IMG/VR virus record: IMGVR_UViG_3300010430_000401
Span: 1 to 26,955 of that record
Origin: a virus
Strand: one strand, 5' to 3'
DNA length: 26,955 nucleotides
Shown: in pieces, positions 2,648 through 12,952 of the stretch
How the letters are laid out: each line of letters starts with the position of its first letter
Numbering within the stretch: the first letter of the stretch is position 1
Notes under the pieces: generated by a model
What the model was told of the DNA's origin: nothing
Databases searched by the model: none
The model's input: only the letters and a program-made list of their open reading frames with translations
Made by a program: the position numbers and the translations under genes

Positions 2648-3430
2648 ATGCCTTCGGATTACCGCTGCACATTTTCTGGGCACTGTGACCACGCGCGGCC
2701 GCCGGGGCCGGGGCGCCGCCTGTTCGCCGTCGTTCGTGGCCAGGTCCGACATGATGGCCTGATGAAGCTCTTGGGGCAGGGCGGCGTCGTCGAGGTGCAG
2801 ACGGGCCCGGTGCCGGTTTGGGAGGTGGGGCCGCTGCCGCCGGAGATGACGGTCAGCAGATCGGTAAGTTTCGACGAGCTGCCGCGCGAGCAGCCTGGCC
2901 CGAAAGTCGCGCCGCCGTGTTGGTTGACCGAGGACTGCCCCCAGGACGCGGGGCACCCGGGGGCGTGTGGGCCGCCCCCCGACACATCCTCGGAGGAGTC
3001 CGAAAACGGACAAGAGGACCCGCGCGAGAGTCTCATGCGCATCGACCTCGAGAACCTCATCGGTGGCAAGCCCGGCCAACGATACCAGATGCCCGACGGG
3101 TGGCGTCCCGGCCGCGCCAACCCCGCCGATCAGCTTCCGGTGCCTGGCGAGTCGGCGCTTCTCTGCCGCTACACAGGCTGCACCTACTTCGATGGGCACG
3201 ACGGTGGGTGTTCCAACGCGCCAGACCTGGAGACCGCGGAAGCCAAGCCTCCCCGTGAGCCCCTTCCGGAGTACCCCAAACAGGCTTGGGGCTACCGCTG
3301 GCACACGGACCGCGATTTCCTCGCTCTAGCGGCGGAGGGCGTCCGTCTTGGTGGCAGGAGCGACATCGTTTCCGCCTTCGAGCGGCTCTCGGAGTACATC
3401 AAGAGGCTTGAGGTGTTCCATGGAGAGTGA
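2648..3430 (+). CDS. Protein with three Cys/His repeat motifs
   Basis: The start is ATG 2648 with AAGGAG seven bases upstream; a GTG at 2621 lacks such a site. The product has 260 residues. Three short motifs recur: CTFSGHCDHARPPG near the N-terminus, CWLTEDCPQDAGHPGAC (about residues 98-114) and CRYTGCTYFDGHDGGC (about 175-190). The last two share the spacing C-x4/5-C-x5-H-x3-C, a likely metal-binding knuckle. The linkers are Pro/Glu/Gly-rich and probably disordered. The C-terminal 40 residues look helical. No enzyme family is recognised. It could be a multivalent binding protein. Confidence 0.65.
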   Translation: MPSDYRCTFSGHCDHARPPGPGRRLFAVVRGQVRHDGLMKLLGQGGVVEVQTGPVPVWEVGPLPPEMTVSRSVSFDELPREQPGPKVAPPCWLTEDCPQDAGHPGACGPPPDTSSEESENGQEDPRESLMRIDLENLIGGKPGQRYQMPDGWRPGRANPADQLPVPGESALLCRYTGCTYFDGHDGGCSNAPDLETAEAKPPREPLPEYPKQAWGYRWHTDRDFLALAAEGVRLGGRSDIVSAFERLSEYIKRLEVFHGE

Positions 3431-3659
3431 GAGCTGGGTTCGCGTCCTCTGCACGAACCGCCAAGAGTTTCTGGAGTGGCAAGTAGCCCACCCCAACATC
3501 CCTGCGGTCTGGTTCGAAGAGCCGATGAGGGGCCTCCGGAACGGTCCGGAGGGATTTCCGTTTGTTACCACCGGGACGTTCTGGGAGGCGACGAAGCGCC
3601 CAGATCTCGTCTATGAGCTCGCCAGCTCAAGGGGTATACCCTGGAAAGGAGACCCATGA
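3420..3659 (+). CDS. Hypothetical small protein
   Basis: This 79-residue product begins MESESWVRVLCTNRQEFLEW at ATG 3420, overlapping the upstream gene by 11 bases, with a GAGG stretch upstream. It is Trp- and Phe-rich, with a compact alpha/beta look (VRVLCTNRQEFLEWQVAHPN), and is followed by the coupled exonuclease start. A longer frame from 3348 exists but overlaps the preceding gene deeply, so I reject it. No family is recognised. Confidence 0.6.
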   Translation: MESESWVRVLCTNRQEFLEWQVAHPNIPAVWFEEPMRGLRNGPEGFPFVTTGTFWEATKRPDLVYELASSRGIPWKGDP

Positions 3660-4303
3660 ACGGAACGACCGTGTTTTTCGACCTGGAGACCGGCGGCCTC
3701 GAGCCGCACCACCCGACGATTCAGATCGCCGCCGTGGCGATGGCGCCCGGCTGGCGCGAGATCGATAGCATCGAGCGGAAGCTCCTATTCGATGAATCCG
3801 CCTGCGATCCCGAGGCCCTGGAGATCAACTCCTACGACATCGACGACTGGCGCCGGGAGGCGGTCGCGCCGGCGGTCGCGCGCCAGAACCTCCAAACCTT
3901 CTTCGAGCATCACGCGACCTGGCAACTCGTCTCGAAGAAGGGCAACCATTACAACACGTGCCGGATCGCGGGCCACAACGCGGCGCACTTCGACGCGCCG
4001 CGGTTGAAGGCGCTCTGGGGCGAGCGGTTTGCGCCGTTCGCGTGGTTCTACCCGCTCGATACCGTCCACCTGGCGCTCTGGTACTTCTCCTTCTACGACG
4101 TGCCGCAGCCGCGGAATTACCAGCTCCAAACGCTCTGCGACCACTTCGAGATCGTCCGGACGGGGGCGGCTCACGATGCGCTGGCCGATGTGCGATCGAC
4201 GGCGATGCTGGCGCGCGAGATCCTCTGCCGGCTGGTGGAAATGCGCGATTTGGATTTCAGCGATACGCCGAAGGACGAGAATCCGGGACTGCGGAATAGC
4301 TGA
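3656..4303 (+). CDS. DnaQ-like DEDDh 3'-5' exonuclease
   Basis: This 215-residue protein carries all three motifs of DEDDh exonucleases: ExoI FDLETGG (D9, E11), ExoII AGHNAAHFDAPRL (D113) and ExoIII AAHDALADVRST (H173, D178). Such enzymes remove 3' nucleotides from DNA or RNA with two divalent metals. The length fits a stand-alone exonuclease domain with no polymerase attached. The start ATG 3656 overlaps the upstream stop (ATGA) and has AAAGGAG in front. In an accessory operon it may serve replication proofreading, recombination or nucleotide salvage; substrate cannot be told from sequence. Confidence 0.88.
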   Translation: MNGTTVFFDLETGGLEPHHPTIQIAAVAMAPGWREIDSIERKLLFDESACDPEALEINSYDIDDWRREAVAPAVARQNLQTFFEHHATWQLVSKKGNHYNTCRIAGHNAAHFDAPRLKALWGERFAPFAWFYPLDTVHLALWYFSFYDVPQPRNYQLQTLCDHFEIVRTGAAHDALADVRSTAMLAREILCRLVEMRDLDFSDTPKDENPGLRNS

Positions 4304-4545
4304 TGTGGGTTGAATTCCGAACGCGCTGCGGCTGTACCTGGATGAAGAACATCGGCGAGCCGCTTCCCGATGTCTGGGAGGTCGCCCTGGATCCGCCGGA
4401 AGGGGCCCGCATGGCCTTAAAACCGGAACGCGCCGATCGCCTTGACTTCCTGCCGGCACCAGAGACCTATGAGATCCGGCGCTTTCGGCGAACCCTCATC
4501 CCGCGTAGCGACGGCGGGTATGCCGTCTTCTACGCTGAAATGTGA
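4303..4545 (+). CDS. Hypothetical small protein
   Basis: This 80-residue protein starts at ATG 4303, sharing one base with the exonuclease stop (TGATG). The sequence (MWVEFRTRCGCTWMKNIGEP... ending YEIRRFRRTLIPRSDGGYAVFYAEM) looks like a small all-beta or alpha/beta protein with charged strands. An RCGCTW motif lies near the N-terminus, but there are too few cysteines for a clear zinc site. No family is recognised. Translational coupling to the exonuclease suggests co-expression. Confidence 0.6.
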   Translation: MWVEFRTRCGCTWMKNIGEPLPDVWEVALDPPEGARMALKPERADRLDFLPAPETYEIRRFRRTLIPRSDGGYAVFYAEM

Positions 4546-4850
4546 TGGATCACAAAACGGCCGCCGCCGCGCTGCTCTTCTGCTTGCTGCTCGCGGTGGA
4601 GGCGCAGGGCCACGTCCAGCCGACGCGCATCTTCTGCCCGGTGCTGGTCGAAGGACGCGCGGGCGAGATGTTCGTAGAGATATCGGCATGGCGTGTCGCG
4701 GTTGGTGAAGACGTGGTGTTGACTTGCGTGCATACCGATGGCGTAGACAGTACATGGGGACCACCGCTAGCGCTTCGCCACGTCCCCGAGCCCAAGGGGC
4801 AGTTGATTGCGGGGCTCGTGGCGCTGGCGCTGCTAGGGAGGAGACGATGA
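4545..4850 (+). CDS. Secreted protein with PEP-CTERM-like sorting tail
   Basis: Start ATG 4545 shares a base with the upstream stop (TGATG); GTG 4542 is an alternative. The 101-residue product has a signal peptide (hydrophobic residues about 6-18, possible cleavage after AQG at 20-22). A short ectodomain with two cysteines (C31, C61) follows. The C-terminus is VPEP (80-83), a hydrophobic stretch (87-97) and RRR. This tripartite ending matches PEP-CTERM signals, which exosortases cleave in Gram-negative bacteria. The tail is seen directly; recognition by a host exosortase is inference. Alternatively it could be a small membrane protein with two hydrophobic helices, such as a holin or superinfection-exclusion factor. 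Confidence 0.7.
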   Translation: MDHKTAAAALLFCLLLAVEAQGHVQPTRIFCPVLVEGRAGEMFVEISAWRVAVGEDVVLTCVHTDGVDSTWGPPLALRHVPEPKGQLIAGLVALALLGRRR

Positions 4851-5017: not shown

Positions 5018-5450
5018 GGAGAGGGCACGCAAGCTATCGCCCTGCACTTGCGACCCCGACGAAGTGGCTCTGCCATGCTGGGAGGGCGAAGACGATCGTG
5101 GTCGCTGGTGCTGGAATTGCTTGCACGCTGAGGACGAAGCCAAACAGATCCGCGAAGCCGAGCGCGTCGCCGCTGATGAAGCTGTCATGTTTCGAGATAG
5201 AGAATGGCTTGATGCCTGCAACCTTACAGGGCAAGAGGGTGACGAACCCGACGACTTCATAGAACACGTCAAAGATGCAGACAGACGCTCTCAAATACTG
5301 GGGCTGGAGCAGAAGTTCTCCGACCACATAGACAGAAGAATCAACGCCGCCGCTGAGAGGATGCGGGAGCGAATCATAGGACTACTCGATCCGAAGCGAA
5401 GTGAGGCACTGATCGCTGCCATCCGCGCCCTGCCGATCGAGGAGGAGTGA
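4998..5450 (+). CDS. Cys-motif hypothetical protein with helical C-terminus
   Basis: ATG 4998 (preceded by AGGGGAG) gives 150 residues. Near the N-terminus CTCDP, then C and WCWNC form a possible zinc site over about residues 16-41. The remainder is charged and helical, with a coiled-coil-like segment around LEQKFSDHIDRRINAAAERMRERI. The end is LPIEEE, an ending (EEE) shared with the next gene. It overlaps the previous gene by 20 bases. No enzymatic signature is visible. Confidence 0.6.
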   Translation: MTKPSAEERARKLSPCTCDPDEVALPCWEGEDDRGRWCWNCLHAEDEAKQIREAERVAADEAVMFRDREWLDACNLTGQEGDEPDDFIEHVKDADRRSQILGLEQKFSDHIDRRINAAAERMRERIIGLLDPKRSEALIAAIRALPIEEE

Positions 5451-5656
5451 TGCCTGGACTAGAAATGAAATACTTCGTGTTGAAGCCACGAGCAAAAACA
5501 AAAAATGACGCCTACGCAAACGCTTCACAGGCTGCCATGCACACCTACGCCGATGCTATCGAGGAGCATAACCAAGCGCTTGCGAACGAACTGCGCTCGT
5601 GGGCACAGAGCGAGACTGCACGGCAGCACCAAAGCCTGCCGACGGAGGAGGAGTGA
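5450..5656 (+). CDS. Small hypothetical protein
   Basis: This 68-residue protein starts at ATG 5450 (TGATG junction, GGAGGAG just upstream). It begins MPGLEMKYFVLKPRAKTKND, where the first strand (KYFVLKP) is followed by an Ala-rich helix containing ANASQAAMHTYADAIEEHNQALANELRSW. Short proteins of this pattern (one strand, one long helix) are common in phage accessory operons. Function is unknown. Confidence 0.6.
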   Translation: MPGLEMKYFVLKPRAKTKNDAYANASQAAMHTYADAIEEHNQALANELRSWAQSETARQHQSLPTEEE

Positions 5657-7994: not shown

Positions 7995-8453
7995 ATGAGC
8001 GCGCTTATCCAGTATCCGCACTACGCGGAGATCGCCTTCCGTGAGTTGATGCTCGGCGTTCGCGAGCTTCCGGATCCCGGCGAGAATCCTCGAATCCTCG
8101 ATTACTTCCACTATTCAGGGCTGGAACCCTTCAGGGGCGACGAGACCGACTGGTGCGCCGCTGGTATGAATTTCTGCTTGGCGATGGACGGAATCACCGG
8201 CACCAACGCCGCCAACGCGCGCAGCTTCCAGAACTGGGGTGTCGAGGTCGAGATGCGGCTGGGCGCCATCGTGCCGCTCTGGAGGATCTCGCCGGAGGAT
8301 TGGCGCGGACACGTCGGGATCTGCGTGGGCTTCGACCCCAGCTACGTCGAGCTCCTAGCTGGAAACCACGGGAAAAGCTGGAGCATGAAGCGGTTCAAGC
8401 GCGAGCGAGTCCTGGGCGTGCGATGGGCAACGCTCGATATGCGGTTCACGTGA
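7995..8453 (+). CDS. Endolysin, TIGR02594/CHAP-like cysteine peptidase
   Basis: The 152-residue protein contains DETDWCAAGMNF (C54), a GTNAANARSFQNWG segment, GHVGIC (H106) and LLAGNHGKSW (N124), followed by RVLGVRW. This is the Cys-His-Asn arrangement of TIGR02594-type and CHAP/NlpC-like peptidoglycan hydrolases. The length is normal for a single-domain endolysin. It has no signal peptide, so it would need a holin or other exit route; the next gene encodes a membrane protein. Cell-wall cleavage is family knowledge; which bond it cuts is unknown. Confidence 0.8.
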   Translation: MSALIQYPHYAEIAFRELMLGVRELPDPGENPRILDYFHYSGLEPFRGDETDWCAAGMNFCLAMDGITGTNAANARSFQNWGVEVEMRLGAIVPLWRISPEDWRGHVGICVGFDPSYVELLAGNHGKSWSMKRFKRERVLGVRWATLDMRFT

Positions 8454-8797
8454 CCGATCCGCTTCTCGTCCGGATCATGCTTGGCCTACTCATCGCCTCG
8501 ATCGGAGCTCTTCTACGCATCGCCGCGCTCCACCATCTCCGCGAAGCTGATCTCACGGACGACCAATTTTTCCACGGTCTCCCGCCCGACCGGTACACCG
8601 CCCAGGGCCCCTACGCCTGGATGGACCACCCCGCCTACGTGGGGAGCTTGCTGATCTTCGGGGGAGGTGGAATCCTCTTCCTGGGATGGGGCGGATTCAT
8701 CATCATTCTCGCGGCCTGGCCTTTCTATGAGGACCGGATCCGTTGGGAGAATAGGGTGCGCCGTACTGCGCGGGAGCGAGGGGTAGATGGGGCATGA
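8450..8797 (+). CDS. ICMT-like membrane protein in the lysis slot
   Basis: GTG 8450 overlaps the endolysin stop as GTGA, giving 115 residues; ATG 8423 would add nine. An N-terminal hydrophobic segment (about residues 4-26) and a second hydrophobic region (about 63-92) flank YTAQGPYAWMDHPAYVGSL. This matches the GPYR-x2-RHPxYxG core of isoprenylcysteine carboxyl methyltransferase-like (ICMT) membrane proteins, with D in place of R. A charged C-terminus (YEDRIRWENRVRRT) follows as in that family. It may act as a holin by position or as a real methyltransferase; sequence alone does not decide. Confidence 0.6.
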   Translation: MTDPLLVRIMLGLLIASIGALLRIAALHHLREADLTDDQFFHGLPPDRYTAQGPYAWMDHPAYVGSLLIFGGGGILFLGWGGFIIILAAWPFYEDRIRWENRVRRTARERGVDGA

Positions 8798-9263
8798 GAC
8801 CGGACTCCCGCACGCCGGCGCGGTAGGACTCCGGAAGCCGCTCAACGCCGAGATCGAGACCGCCCCGGTAGGCGAGGACACCGGACACCTCACCGACGAC
8901 CAGATTCTCGCCGCCCTGGAGAAGAACCAACTCTCCGAAGTCCGCCAGCTCGCCCGCACCCATACGGATCTCGCGATCAGGACGCTGGCGAAAATCTGTC
9001 GCAGCACCAAGCACGCCGCCGCGCCGCGCGTGACAGCCGCTCGCGCTCTCCTCGAGTGGGCTCACGGCAAGCCCGCGCAACAGGTCGGAACGCGGGTCCC
9101 TGGATCTGGTGACTCGAAGATGAAGGTAATCATCTTGAAGCTCTCGGACGGCTCGACCGAGGAGCTCCAGGAAGTCGACGTCACCCCGGGCGCTCCGCCG
9201 ATCGAAGAGCAACTCGAACGGAGCAAGGTCCCCGGCGTCCAGATCCTGGAGATTTCAGAATGA
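8787..9263 (+). CDS. terS: Probable terminase small subunit
   Basis: ATG 8787 (AGGGG upstream) gives 158 residues, ending with an ATGA overlap into the large terminase. The middle (EVRQLARTHTDLAIRTLAKICRSTKHAAAPRVTAARALLEWAHGKPAQQ, about residues 51-99) is the helical repeat pattern seen in many phage small terminase or DNA-recognition subunits: AIxTLAxI..ApaaARVaAAraLLewahGKP. The C-terminal part is a short beta/loop region. The position directly before the large terminase supports the call; the family match is by pattern. Confidence 0.7.
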   Translation: MGHETGLPHAGAVGLRKPLNAEIETAPVGEDTGHLTDDQILAALEKNQLSEVRQLARTHTDLAIRTLAKICRSTKHAAAPRVTAARALLEWAHGKPAQQVGTRVPGSGDSKMKVIILKLSDGSTEELQEVDVTPGAPPIEEQLERSKVPGVQILEISE

Positions 9264-10636
9264 GCCCGATTCCTGGCTTCCATAAAGACGACCCGGACGA
9301 TCCGCACCTTGATCGTAAGAACTTCGGCCAAGTCGGCGAGACGACGATCGCGATCCCGCACAAGTGGCTCCCGCGCGACTACCAGAAAGCGGCATGGTTC
9401 GCGCTGGAGAGCGGGATCAAGCGGCTGGATCTCGTCTGGCACCGGCGCGCGGGCAAAGACATCTTCTCGATCAATTACTGCGCGACGCAAGCGTTCCAGC
9501 GCCCCGGCGTCTACTGGCACATCCTCCCGACCTACCGGCAGGGCCGAAAGATCGTCTGGGAGGGCGTGACCCGGGACGGCCGCCCCTTCCTGGATCACTT
9601 CCCCGAGGAGCTCGTGGTCCGAAAGCGGGACGACGAGATGAGCCTCTGGCTTGAGGGCGGGTCGCTGTATCAGGTCATCGGCGCCGACGATCCGGACCGC
9701 CTGGTGGGCGCCAACCCGTTCGGCGTGATCTTCTCGGAGTTCTCGCTCATCGACCCGCGCGTCTGGGAATTGCTCCGCCCGATCCTCGCGGAAAATGGGG
9801 GCTGGGCCGTCTTCATCTATACCCCGCGAGGTTACAACCACGCTCACAAGCTCCACCGGATGGCGATGAAATCGGACTGGTGGTTTTCCCAGGTACTCAC
9901 GGTAGACGACACCAAGGCCGTCTCGGATCTGGCGATCCATCAGCAGCGTGAAGAGGGGATGCCCGAAGAGCTGATCCAGCAGGAATTTTTTTGCTCTTTC
10001 GAGGCCCCGCTCGTCGGCTCCTACTACGGGAAGGAGATCGAGCTGGCCGCCAAGGAAGGCCGGATCGGGAAGATTCCGCACGAGTCGGCCCTTCCGGTGG
10101 ACACCTTCTGGGACCTCGGGATGCGAGACGCCACGGCCATCTGGTTCCACCAGCGCGTAGCCCGCGAGCATCGGCTCATCGATTTCGAGTACCGGAGCGG
10201 CGTCGGGCTCTCCGAGTACGCCAAGATATTGCGTGAAAAGCCCTACGTTTACGGTGAGCACCTCGTTCCACACGACGCCTCGGTCCAGGAGCTCGGGACC
10301 GGTGTCTCGCGCGTGGAGACAGCCGCTTCGCTCGGGATTCCGATGCGGATCATCCGCAAACTCGATCTCATGGATGGCATTAACGCGACCCGGATGTTTC
10401 TCCGTAAGTGCTGGATCGATGAAGAGAAATGCGATTATGGACTCCAGGCCCTCCGCCAGTACACGAAGGAAGACACGGGTGAGCGCGACCTCAACAACCA
10501 GATCGTCTACCGAGATAAGCCAAGGCACGACTGGGCGAGCCACCCGGCGGATGCGCTCCGGACCGGCGCCGTGGGCTGGGTCGAGCCCTGGGAGGAGCAC
10601 GAGGGCCCGCTGGCACCCGAGACGGGCATCGTATGA
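9260..10636 (+). CDS. terL: Terminase large subunit (ATPase/nuclease)
   Basis: This 458-residue protein has a Walker-A-like WHRRAGKD (60-67), Walker B GVIFSEF (155-161) and a coupling motif YTPRG (187-191). The C-terminal RNase-H-like nuclease starts at FWDLGMRDATAIW (D286), with HDASVQELG (D339) and a final HPADALRTG (D431). These are the parts of a headful-type packaging motor that cuts concatemeric DNA and pumps it through the portal. Length and motif order are normal. ATG 9260 is coupled to the small subunit (ATGA). Confidence 0.93.
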   Translation: MSPIPGFHKDDPDDPHLDRKNFGQVGETTIAIPHKWLPRDYQKAAWFALESGIKRLDLVWHRRAGKDIFSINYCATQAFQRPGVYWHILPTYRQGRKIVWEGVTRDGRPFLDHFPEELVVRKRDDEMSLWLEGGSLYQVIGADDPDRLVGANPFGVIFSEFSLIDPRVWELLRPILAENGGWAVFIYTPRGYNHAHKLHRMAMKSDWWFSQVLTVDDTKAVSDLAIHQQREEGMPEELIQQEFFCSFEAPLVGSYYGKEIELAAKEGRIGKIPHESALPVDTFWDLGMRDATAIWFHQRVAREHRLIDFEYRSGVGLSEYAKILREKPYVYGEHLVPHDASVQELGTGVSRVETAASLGIPMRIIRKLDLMDGINATRMFLRKCWIDEEKCDYGLQALRQYTKEDTGERDLNNQIVYRDKPRHDWASHPADALRTGAVGWVEPWEEHEGPLAPETGIV

Positions 10637-10836
10637 GTCTCCGCCTTGAGACAAAGATGGCCGCCCTGGAGAGCCGCGCGGACGCTCAAGACGCAGAGAT
10701 CAAGGAGCTTCGAAGGCTCCTAGAGGCCCTCTCCGAGCCCGAGCTGAATGTGATCGTGCCGGCGTTCCCGAAAATTCTCCGCAAGATGGGCTATAAACCA
10801 CCAGACGACGGGTCTCCAGAGGCCCACCATGCCTGA
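10633..10836 (+). CDS. Small coiled-coil protein between terminase and portal
   Basis: ATG 10633 overlaps the terminase stop (ATGA) and gives 67 residues. Residues about 7-33 (KMAALESRADAQDAEIKELRRLLEALSE) form a clear heptad coiled coil. The rest is a short tail. It overlaps the portal start by 8 bases. No family is recognised; a structural or assembly accessory role is plausible from position. Confidence 0.65.
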   Translation: MSLRLETKMAALESRADAQDAEIKELRRLLEALSEPELNVIVPAFPKILRKMGYKPPDDGSPEAHHA

Positions 10837-12952
10837 TGTCGAGCCTGCTACCGAAGAGCAGATCTACCAAAGCCGACCGATCGAGCCCCTGTCACCGGAG
10901 CAGGTGAAAGGGATCGTTGAGTACGAGATCTCGGACGCCATCGGTGGTCTGGGCGAAGGATCCAGCATCTCCGAGCAGCGCCGTCTTGCTCTCCGGTACT
11001 ACTACGGACGGCCCTTCGGAAACGAGATCGAGGGCCGCTCCCAGGTCATCCTGACGGACGTCGCCGACACGATCGAGTGGATCATGCCGACGTTGATGCG
11101 GATGCTCTGCCCGAACGGGAAGCGCGTCGCGAGGCTGACCCCCACGCGCTCCGGAGATCAGGCGAAGCAATCGGCCAAGGTCGCAACGGCCGGCGTGAAC
11201 CACATCATCATGAAGGAGAACAACGGCTTTTCTCTCCTCCACGACTGGTTCAAGACGGCACTCCTGGAAAAAAACGGCTTCCTGAAGACCTACTACGAGG
11301 AGAAGCTGGAGCCGAACCGCACCGCCTATCGCGGGCTCGACGAGATGGAGCTCGCGGTACTCCTGGAGGATGAGGGCCTACAGGTCGTCAGCTATGACGA
11401 GCGCGTGGAGCCCGTGAACGGAGTTCCGACGGTCTTCTTCGATGTCGTCGTTCAGAACCGCAGTATCCGTGGGCAGATCAAGGTGGAGGGCGTTCCTCCG
11501 GAAGAGTTCCTGATCGCTCGACGCTCGATCAAGCTCGACGACGAAACGGCTTTCTGCGCGCATCACAAGAAGATGACCGTCAGCGACCTTCTAGCCCTCG
11601 GCTTCGATCGCGATCTTGTGCTCCAGACGCCGACGGATGACACGCCGGAGTTCACGCTCTCCAGACAAGAGCGGTTCGATGAAGAAGAGACGTTCCCGAT
11701 CGGCAGCGGGGACCGCGCGGATCCGGCTTCCCGCGAGATCTGGGTTACGGAGTGCTACGCCCGGATCGACGAGGATGGAGACGGCTACTCCGAGCTGCGG
11801 AAGGTTACGGTCGTTGGTCAGACAGCGTCCGTCATGCTCGGGGACGAAGAGATCAACCACAACCCGTTCTCCTCGATCACCCCGGTCCCGATGCCGTTCA
11901 AGTTCATCGGCCAGTCGCTCGCGGATCTCGTGATGGATCTCCAAAAGATCCGCTCGGTTCTGCTCCGCGCGATGATGGACAACCTCTTCCTCCACAACAA
12001 TCCTCGAACCGAGGTCGTCGAGGGGCAGGTCAACATCGACGATCTGCTCACCAGCCGGCCCGGAAACATCGTCCGCGTTCGTGCGCCGAATATGATGCGC
12101 GAGGTCGAGACGCCGGCGTTTTCGCCGATGGCCATGGGGATGATGGAGTTCCTGGAGGGCGTTCGGGAGAACCGAACGGGGATCACCCGCTACAACCAGG
12201 GCATGGATGCCGAGAGCCTCAACCAGACCGCCTCTGGGATCACGCAGATCATGACCGCGGCAGCCGCCCGGGTTGAGCTGATCGCCCGGATATTTGCGCA
12301 GACCGGCATGAGGGACGTCGTCAAGCAGGTCTATCGCTGCATGAAGGAGAGCCCGATCCGACCCTTCGAGGTTCAGCTCGACGATGGCGCCTGGCTGATG
12401 GTTGACCCGAACGTCTTCGTCGAGGACTTTGATGTCGAGATCGTGACTGGTCTTGGCGTCGGCGCAGCCACCGAGAGGATCCAACACATCCAGATGCTCC
12501 TTGAGCTTCAGGCGCAAGTCGTTGATCGCGGGTACGGGGACTACCTCGTCAACGCCGAGAACATCTACAATTCAACCGAAGAGCTGACCGATGCGATGGG
12601 CTTCGAGATGCCGAATCAATTCTTCACCAATCCGAGAGGACAGAAGCCTCCGGAGCCGCGCCCGGATCCGCGCGTCGTCGTGCAGAATCTTCGCAACCAA
12701 GCCGACACACAGAAGCTCGAGGTGACGAAGATCAGCGCCGAAGTGGATGCAAACAAGGAAGCGGCTCTGGTGGAGCACCGCGCGGCGGATCTCGCGCAGG
12801 AATACGAGCTTGAGATGCACCGGATCAAGGTGGATTCGGAGACGCGGATCGAAATCGCAAAGATCCAAGCAGATGCGAGCCTCCAGGTCGCCGCTTCGCA
12901 AGCAGCGGATCGGGACGCCAAAAAGGCGAACGGCAAAGACGCTACAGCGTGA
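10829..12952 (+). CDS. Portal protein
   Basis: This 707-residue protein has the expected place and size of a podovirus portal, the dodecameric ring through which DNA enters the capsid. Recognisable stretches include YYYGRPFGNEIEGRSQVILTDVADTIEWIMP near residues 57-88, and LNQTASGITQIMTAAAARVELIARIFAQTGM around 465-495, typical of portal clip/stem helices. From about residue 594 the tail is Pro-rich and then strongly helical and charged, likely a barrel or capsid-interior extension. It starts at ATG 10829 inside the end of the preceding gene. Confidence 0.88.
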   Translation: MPDVEPATEEQIYQSRPIEPLSPEQVKGIVEYEISDAIGGLGEGSSISEQRRLALRYYYGRPFGNEIEGRSQVILTDVADTIEWIMPTLMRMLCPNGKRVARLTPTRSGDQAKQSAKVATAGVNHIIMKENNGFSLLHDWFKTALLEKNGFLKTYYEEKLEPNRTAYRGLDEMELAVLLEDEGLQVVSYDERVEPVNGVPTVFFDVVVQNRSIRGQIKVEGVPPEEFLIARRSIKLDDETAFCAHHKKMTVSDLLALGFDRDLVLQTPTDDTPEFTLSRQERFDEEETFPIGSGDRADPASREIWVTECYARIDEDGDGYSELRKVTVVGQTASVMLGDEEINHNPFSSITPVPMPFKFIGQSLADLVMDLQKIRSVLLRAMMDNLFLHNNPRTEVVEGQVNIDDLLTSRPGNIVRVRAPNMMREVETPAFSPMAMGMMEFLEGVRENRTGITRYNQGMDAESLNQTASGITQIMTAAAARVELIARIFAQTGMRDVVKQVYRCMKESPIRPFEVQLDDGAWLMVDPNVFVEDFDVEIVTGLGVGAATERIQHIQMLLELQAQVVDRGYGDYLVNAENIYNSTEELTDAMGFEMPNQFFTNPRGQKPPEPRPDPRVVVQNLRNQADTQKLEVTKISAEVDANKEAALVEHRAADLAQEYELEMHRIKVDSETRIEIAKIQADASLQVAASQAADRDAKKANGKDATA

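Follow-up and report, generated by a model that had tools for sequence, protein, structure and literature searches.

The stretch of DNA analysed here, which we call the window, is a virus record from IMG/VR, linear and 26,955 bases long, that probably represents a genome fragment. Its phage identity is marked by a large terminase gene (Table 1), and it also carries portal and major capsid genes that are distant kin of those of Pseudomonas podoviruses and of uncultured spring-water phages. Inference of the host from isolates was uninformative, since nothing closer turned up than contigs from spring water and a mixed set of phages, all at ~53% identity or below. Within an accessory region of overlapping genes, an ORF at 4545-4850 fills the gap between two short neighbours, and it is the product of this ORF that concerns us.

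Table 1. Features of the window, and paired PEP-CTERM genes of two other virus contigs.
Feature	Position	Strand	Remarks
DnaQ-type 3'-5' exonuclease (phrog_192, RNase_T)	3656..4303	+	
Upstream overlapping gene, 80 aa	4303..4545	+	no family match
ORF, 101 aa, predicted exported and anchored protein	4545..4850	+	ATG shares bases with stop of 4303-4545 (TGATG); TGA shares bases with ATG at 4847 (ATGA)
Signal-peptide-like segment MDHKTAAAALLFCLLLAVEAQG	4545..4610	+	hydropathy; lipobox pattern search negative
Predicted periplasmic part, 57 aa, Cys31 and Cys61	4611..4781	+	low-confidence beta strands (pLDDT 51)
PEP-CTERM-like tail VPEPKGQLIAGLVALALLGRRR	4782..4847	+	no TIGR02595 match
Shine-Dalgarno and spacer of next gene, GGGAGGAGACG before ATG at 4847	4836..4846	+	same bases as terminal GRRR codons
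Downstream overlapping gene, 56 aa	4847..5017	+	
Putative endolysin or tail-lysozyme domain	7995-8453		
Large terminase subunit	9260..10636	+	marks phage identity
Portal protein (phrog_1216)	10829..12952	+	~33% to Pseudomonas podovirus portals
PEP-CTERM pair, contig L183	8244-8936 and 8958-9596	-	same pair in L169
PEP-CTERM pair, contig L190	6195-6974 and 6971-7741	+	

The ORF encodes 101 residues, MDHKTAAAALLFCLLLAVEAQGHVQPTRIFCPVLVEGRAGEMFVEISAWRVAVGEDVVLTCVHTDGVDSTWGPPLALRHVPEPKGQLIAGLVALALLGRRR, followed by a stop codon. Translation and hydropathy agree with what an earlier note on this DNA had described: a signal-like N-terminus, two cysteines in the mature part (31 and 61; a third, Cys13, precedes it) and a C-terminal VPEP followed by a hydrophobic segment and RRR. 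The same note had called the product phage-encoded and secreted, and its phage origin and probable export stand: phage genes surround it on the contig, and hydropathy, from which both the signal peptide and the C-terminal helix were predicted, also supports a C-terminal anchor. The structure was predicted without an alignment.

Several other small genes deserve mention in their own right. At 8423-8797 (+), directly upstream of a small-terminase-like gene, the window encodes a membrane protein that resembles methyltransferases (PEMT in Pfam, E=2e-10; ICMT, E=9e-8) and that has a homologue in a syntenic relative (L012, 5232-5576) and no match among cultured phages. Over 48 residues, a small ORF at 5447-5656 (+) matches phrog_9572 (E=7e-5), which stands for a sulfatase-modifying factor enzyme; the ORF is too short to be such an enzyme. 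The syntenic relative encodes, at 3071-3589 (+), a secreted protein that ends in a dockerin-like repeat (Dockerin_1, a sub-threshold 15.8 bits; GDANEDGELDVLDATVIRRRLAGL); by eye it resembles the product of ORF 4545-4850, and it was dropped as a counterpart at a BLASTP E of 70. In another related phage, a small, membrane-anchored and cysteine-rich protein of 69 aa is encoded upstream of the packaging genes (L011, 3256-3465, +).

What makes ORF 4545-4850 conspicuous is its tail, which the earlier note had taken for a PEP-CTERM signal recognised by exosortases. In fact, the end of the protein, VPEP-KGQLIAGLVALALLG-RRR, shows P-E-P, helix and basic cluster in the right order at the extreme C-terminus, with a normal spacing of 15 residues between PEP and the arginines. 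The models nevertheless do not recognise it. At E<=10, TIGR02595 (cut-off 16 bits) matched neither the full-length protein nor its excised tail, nor anything on the contig, and the protein gave no match to PF07589, a model that finds just 22% of TIGR02595 instances according to the founding paper of the class (PMC1569441). An HMM search with PEP-CTERM models had been proposed beforehand as the check, and its best result was a sub-threshold one: NF038126 scored 15.8 bits on the tail against a cut-off of 50, in an alignment spanning the whole tail (E=0.003-0.013). The note had named the lack of a PEP-CTERM model match as what would refute its idea, and a lack of such a match is what the search gave. 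By comparison, all seven undisputed viral PEP-CTERM proteins used as positive controls passed TIGR02595 with 23.9-29.8 bits, and each of them matched 13-19 models, mostly of PEP-CTERM types. The MYXO-CTERM model (TIGR03901, cut-off 20 bits) gave 13.0 bits with the protein and 16.3-16.9 with the tail alone; this partial match is confined to the helix and arginines, and the invariant cysteine is missing from the tail. Because the defining model tests failed, we do not accept PEP-CTERM membership for this protein.

A closer look at the residues points the same way. We built a profile from 35 real tails taken from gammaproteobacterial genomes, each left out in turn for scoring: the tail of ORF 4545-4850 received 1.5 bits, against 10.7-52.3 for the left-out real tails. 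These training tails had been picked by TIGR02595, so the profile may miss unrecognised variants. The bias correction matters here, because the score without it rises to 16.1 bits, near the top of 10,056 phage ORF tails, although the uncorrected match covers just the generic L..GL..L..RRR part and, separately, VPEP. With an ungapped matrix the tail scored 4.6, a value reached by 23 unrelated phage tails, whereas real tails scored at least 25.6. The misfit can be located: after PEP the protein reads K-G-Q, in place of the [A/G/S]-[S/T]-x of most real tails, and its G-L core is shifted two residues towards PEP. Scanning for VPEPK ahead of a basic run revealed no membrane-tail protein with VPEPK, a hydrophobic stretch and RRR in 83 viral stretches, in a search limited to the GTG valine codon that the window's own tail (GTC) would itself escape, and none in 200 Pseudomonadota genomes. 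Thus, in its detailed sequence the tail misfits PEP-CTERM, and exosortase processing is not the best-supported reading.

How uncommon is such a layout in the first place? The window and 113 related viral loci (114 sequences, 1.22 Mb) contain 10,055 closed ORFs with 50 codons or more. Two of these passed a filter that required P[EST]P together with a hydrophobic stretch and basic residues at the C-terminus: ORF 4545-4850 and a borderline case in L101 that lacks a true membrane segment. In a larger set (1.57 Mb), from which loci fetched for carrying VPEP were excluded, a hydrophobic N-terminus combined with a terminal helix and basic end occurs in only five ORFs, of which ORF 4545-4850 alone has PEP. 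Both counts make the layout uncommon. Its parts, however, are not independent proof, because the last codons of the ORF (GGG AGG AGA CGA) double as the Shine-Dalgarno sequence and spacer of the gene at 4847. RRR ends are not routine at comparable gene overlaps (2 of 65), so this double use lowers the weight of the arginines and does not explain the tail away. We would expect VPEP at the periplasmic end of a helix by chance in ~1e-4 of proteins with the same layout, a rough estimate of ours rather than a computed value, and this counts against reading the tail as a plain anchor.

Canonical PEP-CTERM genes do occur in other virus contigs. A scan of IMG/VR for VPEP[AG][ST]L...RRR returned 35 stretches, and at least 26 contigs carry 27 convincing PEP-CTERM tails. 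Several of these genes lie beside phage hallmarks: a terminase in L165 and L190, a portal in L181, a head protease in L175, and both a portal/adaptor and a terminase in L183. Two PEP-CTERM genes sit close together in each of L183/L169, L190, L172 and L164, and in L183 and L190 the pair is found shortly upstream of the large terminase. By BLAST, 18 of the proteins cluster, to which their shared tails contribute. Contigs without hallmark genes may possibly be misbinned bacterial DNA. Among cultured phages, neither of two PEP-CTERM proteins tested was found and nothing matched the consensus tail; the titles and abstracts that came back from searches of open-access papers report no connection of PEP-CTERM or exosortases to phages, prophages or auxiliary metabolic genes. 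These canonical genes look like a real and apparently undescribed class of phage cargo. The smallest of them, in L182 (614-793, -), is a protein of 59 aa that comprises a signal peptide, a two-cysteine linker, a canonical PEP-CTERM (TIGR02595, 29.8 bits) and little more; its contig also holds a Holliday-junction-resolvase-like phage gene. The earlier note had expected PEP-CTERM cargo to be unusual in a phage. This proves half right: canonical genes do turn up in at least 26 contigs, but ORF 4545-4850 is unlike them.

Could the tail then be a diverged but genuine PEP-CTERM? The protein would be exported and parked in the membrane by its helix until a host exosortase cuts it at PEP, releasing it to the surface or the extracellular matrix, where it would alter envelope or biofilm. 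The layout, unique to this ORF among those of related phages, and the NF038126 alignment along the full tail both speak for this, as does the lack of homology outside the tail, which is typical of the class (PMC1569441). The canonical genes in phage contigs, down to the minimal L182 protein and the pairs beside terminase genes, make phage use of the system plausible. Against it stand the failure of TIGR02595, PF07589, profile and matrix alike, the residues after PEP with the shortened distance to the core, and the empty VPEPK scans. Moreover, no related phage that we fetched has a convincing tail (L114, in one relative, reaches 13.8 bits with TIGR02595, under the cut-off), and the 27-kb contig encodes no second PEP-CTERM protein. 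Another PEP-CTERM trait, a gene that forms an operon by itself behind a long intergenic region, may not suit phage genomes; it is absent here as well, since ORF 4545-4850 lies in an operon and overlaps both neighbours. The contig carries no exosortase; 29 of 150 genomes drawn evenly from one phylum, Pseudomonadota, have one, a base rate only, for a phylum that may not be the host's. On balance we consider a divergent PEP-CTERM unlikely, although it is the alternative to be taken most seriously. It is about as doubtful that the phage hijacks a host exosortase to display a small surface protein through a signal so diverged, with its K-G-Q and shortened core, that current models miss it; that the product works like an exosortase substrate in some form is unlikely to a similar degree.

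A more radical alternative holds that the ORF is not translated at all and is a chance open frame in DNA of 63% GC. Its codon score is indeed weak (-0.03 per codon, where known in-frame stretches have a 5th percentile of 0.07 and off-frame ones a median of -0.21), and no homologue turned up in viral_contigs, phages, plasmids or PDB, the plasmid search giving one partial match of 33 bits (E=4). A single genome_contigs match, in Thiohalocapsa (L115), was rejected as spurious: it runs antisense inside an ATPase/nuclease-like gene, and its E-value is relative to pre-selected stretches only. Yet the adjoining accessory genes also score poorly, their choice of synonymous codons departing from the norm just as much, and a signal sequence together with a terminal helix is improbable by chance. 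The ORF is tiled with both neighbours, its start and stop overlapping them exactly and its frame filling the sole gap between them, and this supports it as a gene; on the minus strand, ORFs across the same interval have no Pfam match. We consider it very probably a real gene, and a chance frame correspondingly improbable.

The weakest candidate is a unimolecular spanin, the type of lysis protein that spans the periplasm to connect both membranes. In its predicted layout ORF 4545-4850 would resemble T1 gp11 (PMC6139136), with an export signal, a beta-type periplasmic domain, to which the strands of the low-confidence model would correspond, and a C-terminal inner-membrane helix. We reject this reading as very improbable since two defining features fail, the lipobox being replaced by LLFC before Cys13 and two cysteines lying in a periplasmic part where 0 of 58 surveyed u-spanins have any (PMC6139136), and since the ORF lies outside a lysis cassette, ~3.1 kb from the putative endolysin.

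Since the tail fails every PEP-CTERM model, the likeliest identity for the product of ORF 4545-4850 is that of an orphan envelope protein of the phage. By a slight preponderance we favour a Sec-exported accessory protein anchored in the inner membrane, a reading built on predicted features. The N-terminal signal sequence would direct Sec export, with cleavage probably near AQG-H, and leave 57 residues in the periplasm, where Cys31 and Cys61 may form a disulfide. The C-terminal helix would hold the protein in the inner membrane with its arginine cluster in the cytoplasm (N-out/C-in). From there it would most likely act at the host envelope during infection, and its size, topology and accessory position suggest superinfection exclusion as the likeliest role.

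As things stand, ORF 4545-4850 thus adds another orphan phage membrane protein. It also calls for caution, because look-alikes that combine PEP, a helix and RRR need to be checked against sorting-signal models and for overlap with the Shine-Dalgarno sequence of the next gene. The canonical viral genes carry a different implication: through them, we envision, phages could feed proteins into the sorting pathway that biofilm bacteria link to exopolysaccharide.

Compared with known systems, the protein resembles several in part. Like PEP-CTERM proteins (TIGR02595/PF07589; exosortase EpsH/Xrt, PF09721), it begins with what looks like a signal sequence, has P-E-P ahead of the terminal helix and a basic end, and lacks homology elsewhere; it is unlike them in its model scores, in the K-G-Q after PEP and the displaced core, and in being a single copy in an overlapping operon on a contig without exosortase. 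The canonical proteins from IMG/VR (L182, L183/L169, L190, L165 and others) likewise come from virus-classified contigs, several beside packaging genes, and the L182 protein, smaller than ours, also has two cysteines. In contrast to ORF 4545-4850, those tested pass TIGR02595, and BLASTP detects no similarity between them and our protein. Finally, phages are known to encode small membrane proteins for superinfection exclusion, which are accessory and located in the envelope. We found no sequence relationship to them, but the product of ORF 4545-4850 is likewise small, accessory and, by prediction, located in the envelope.
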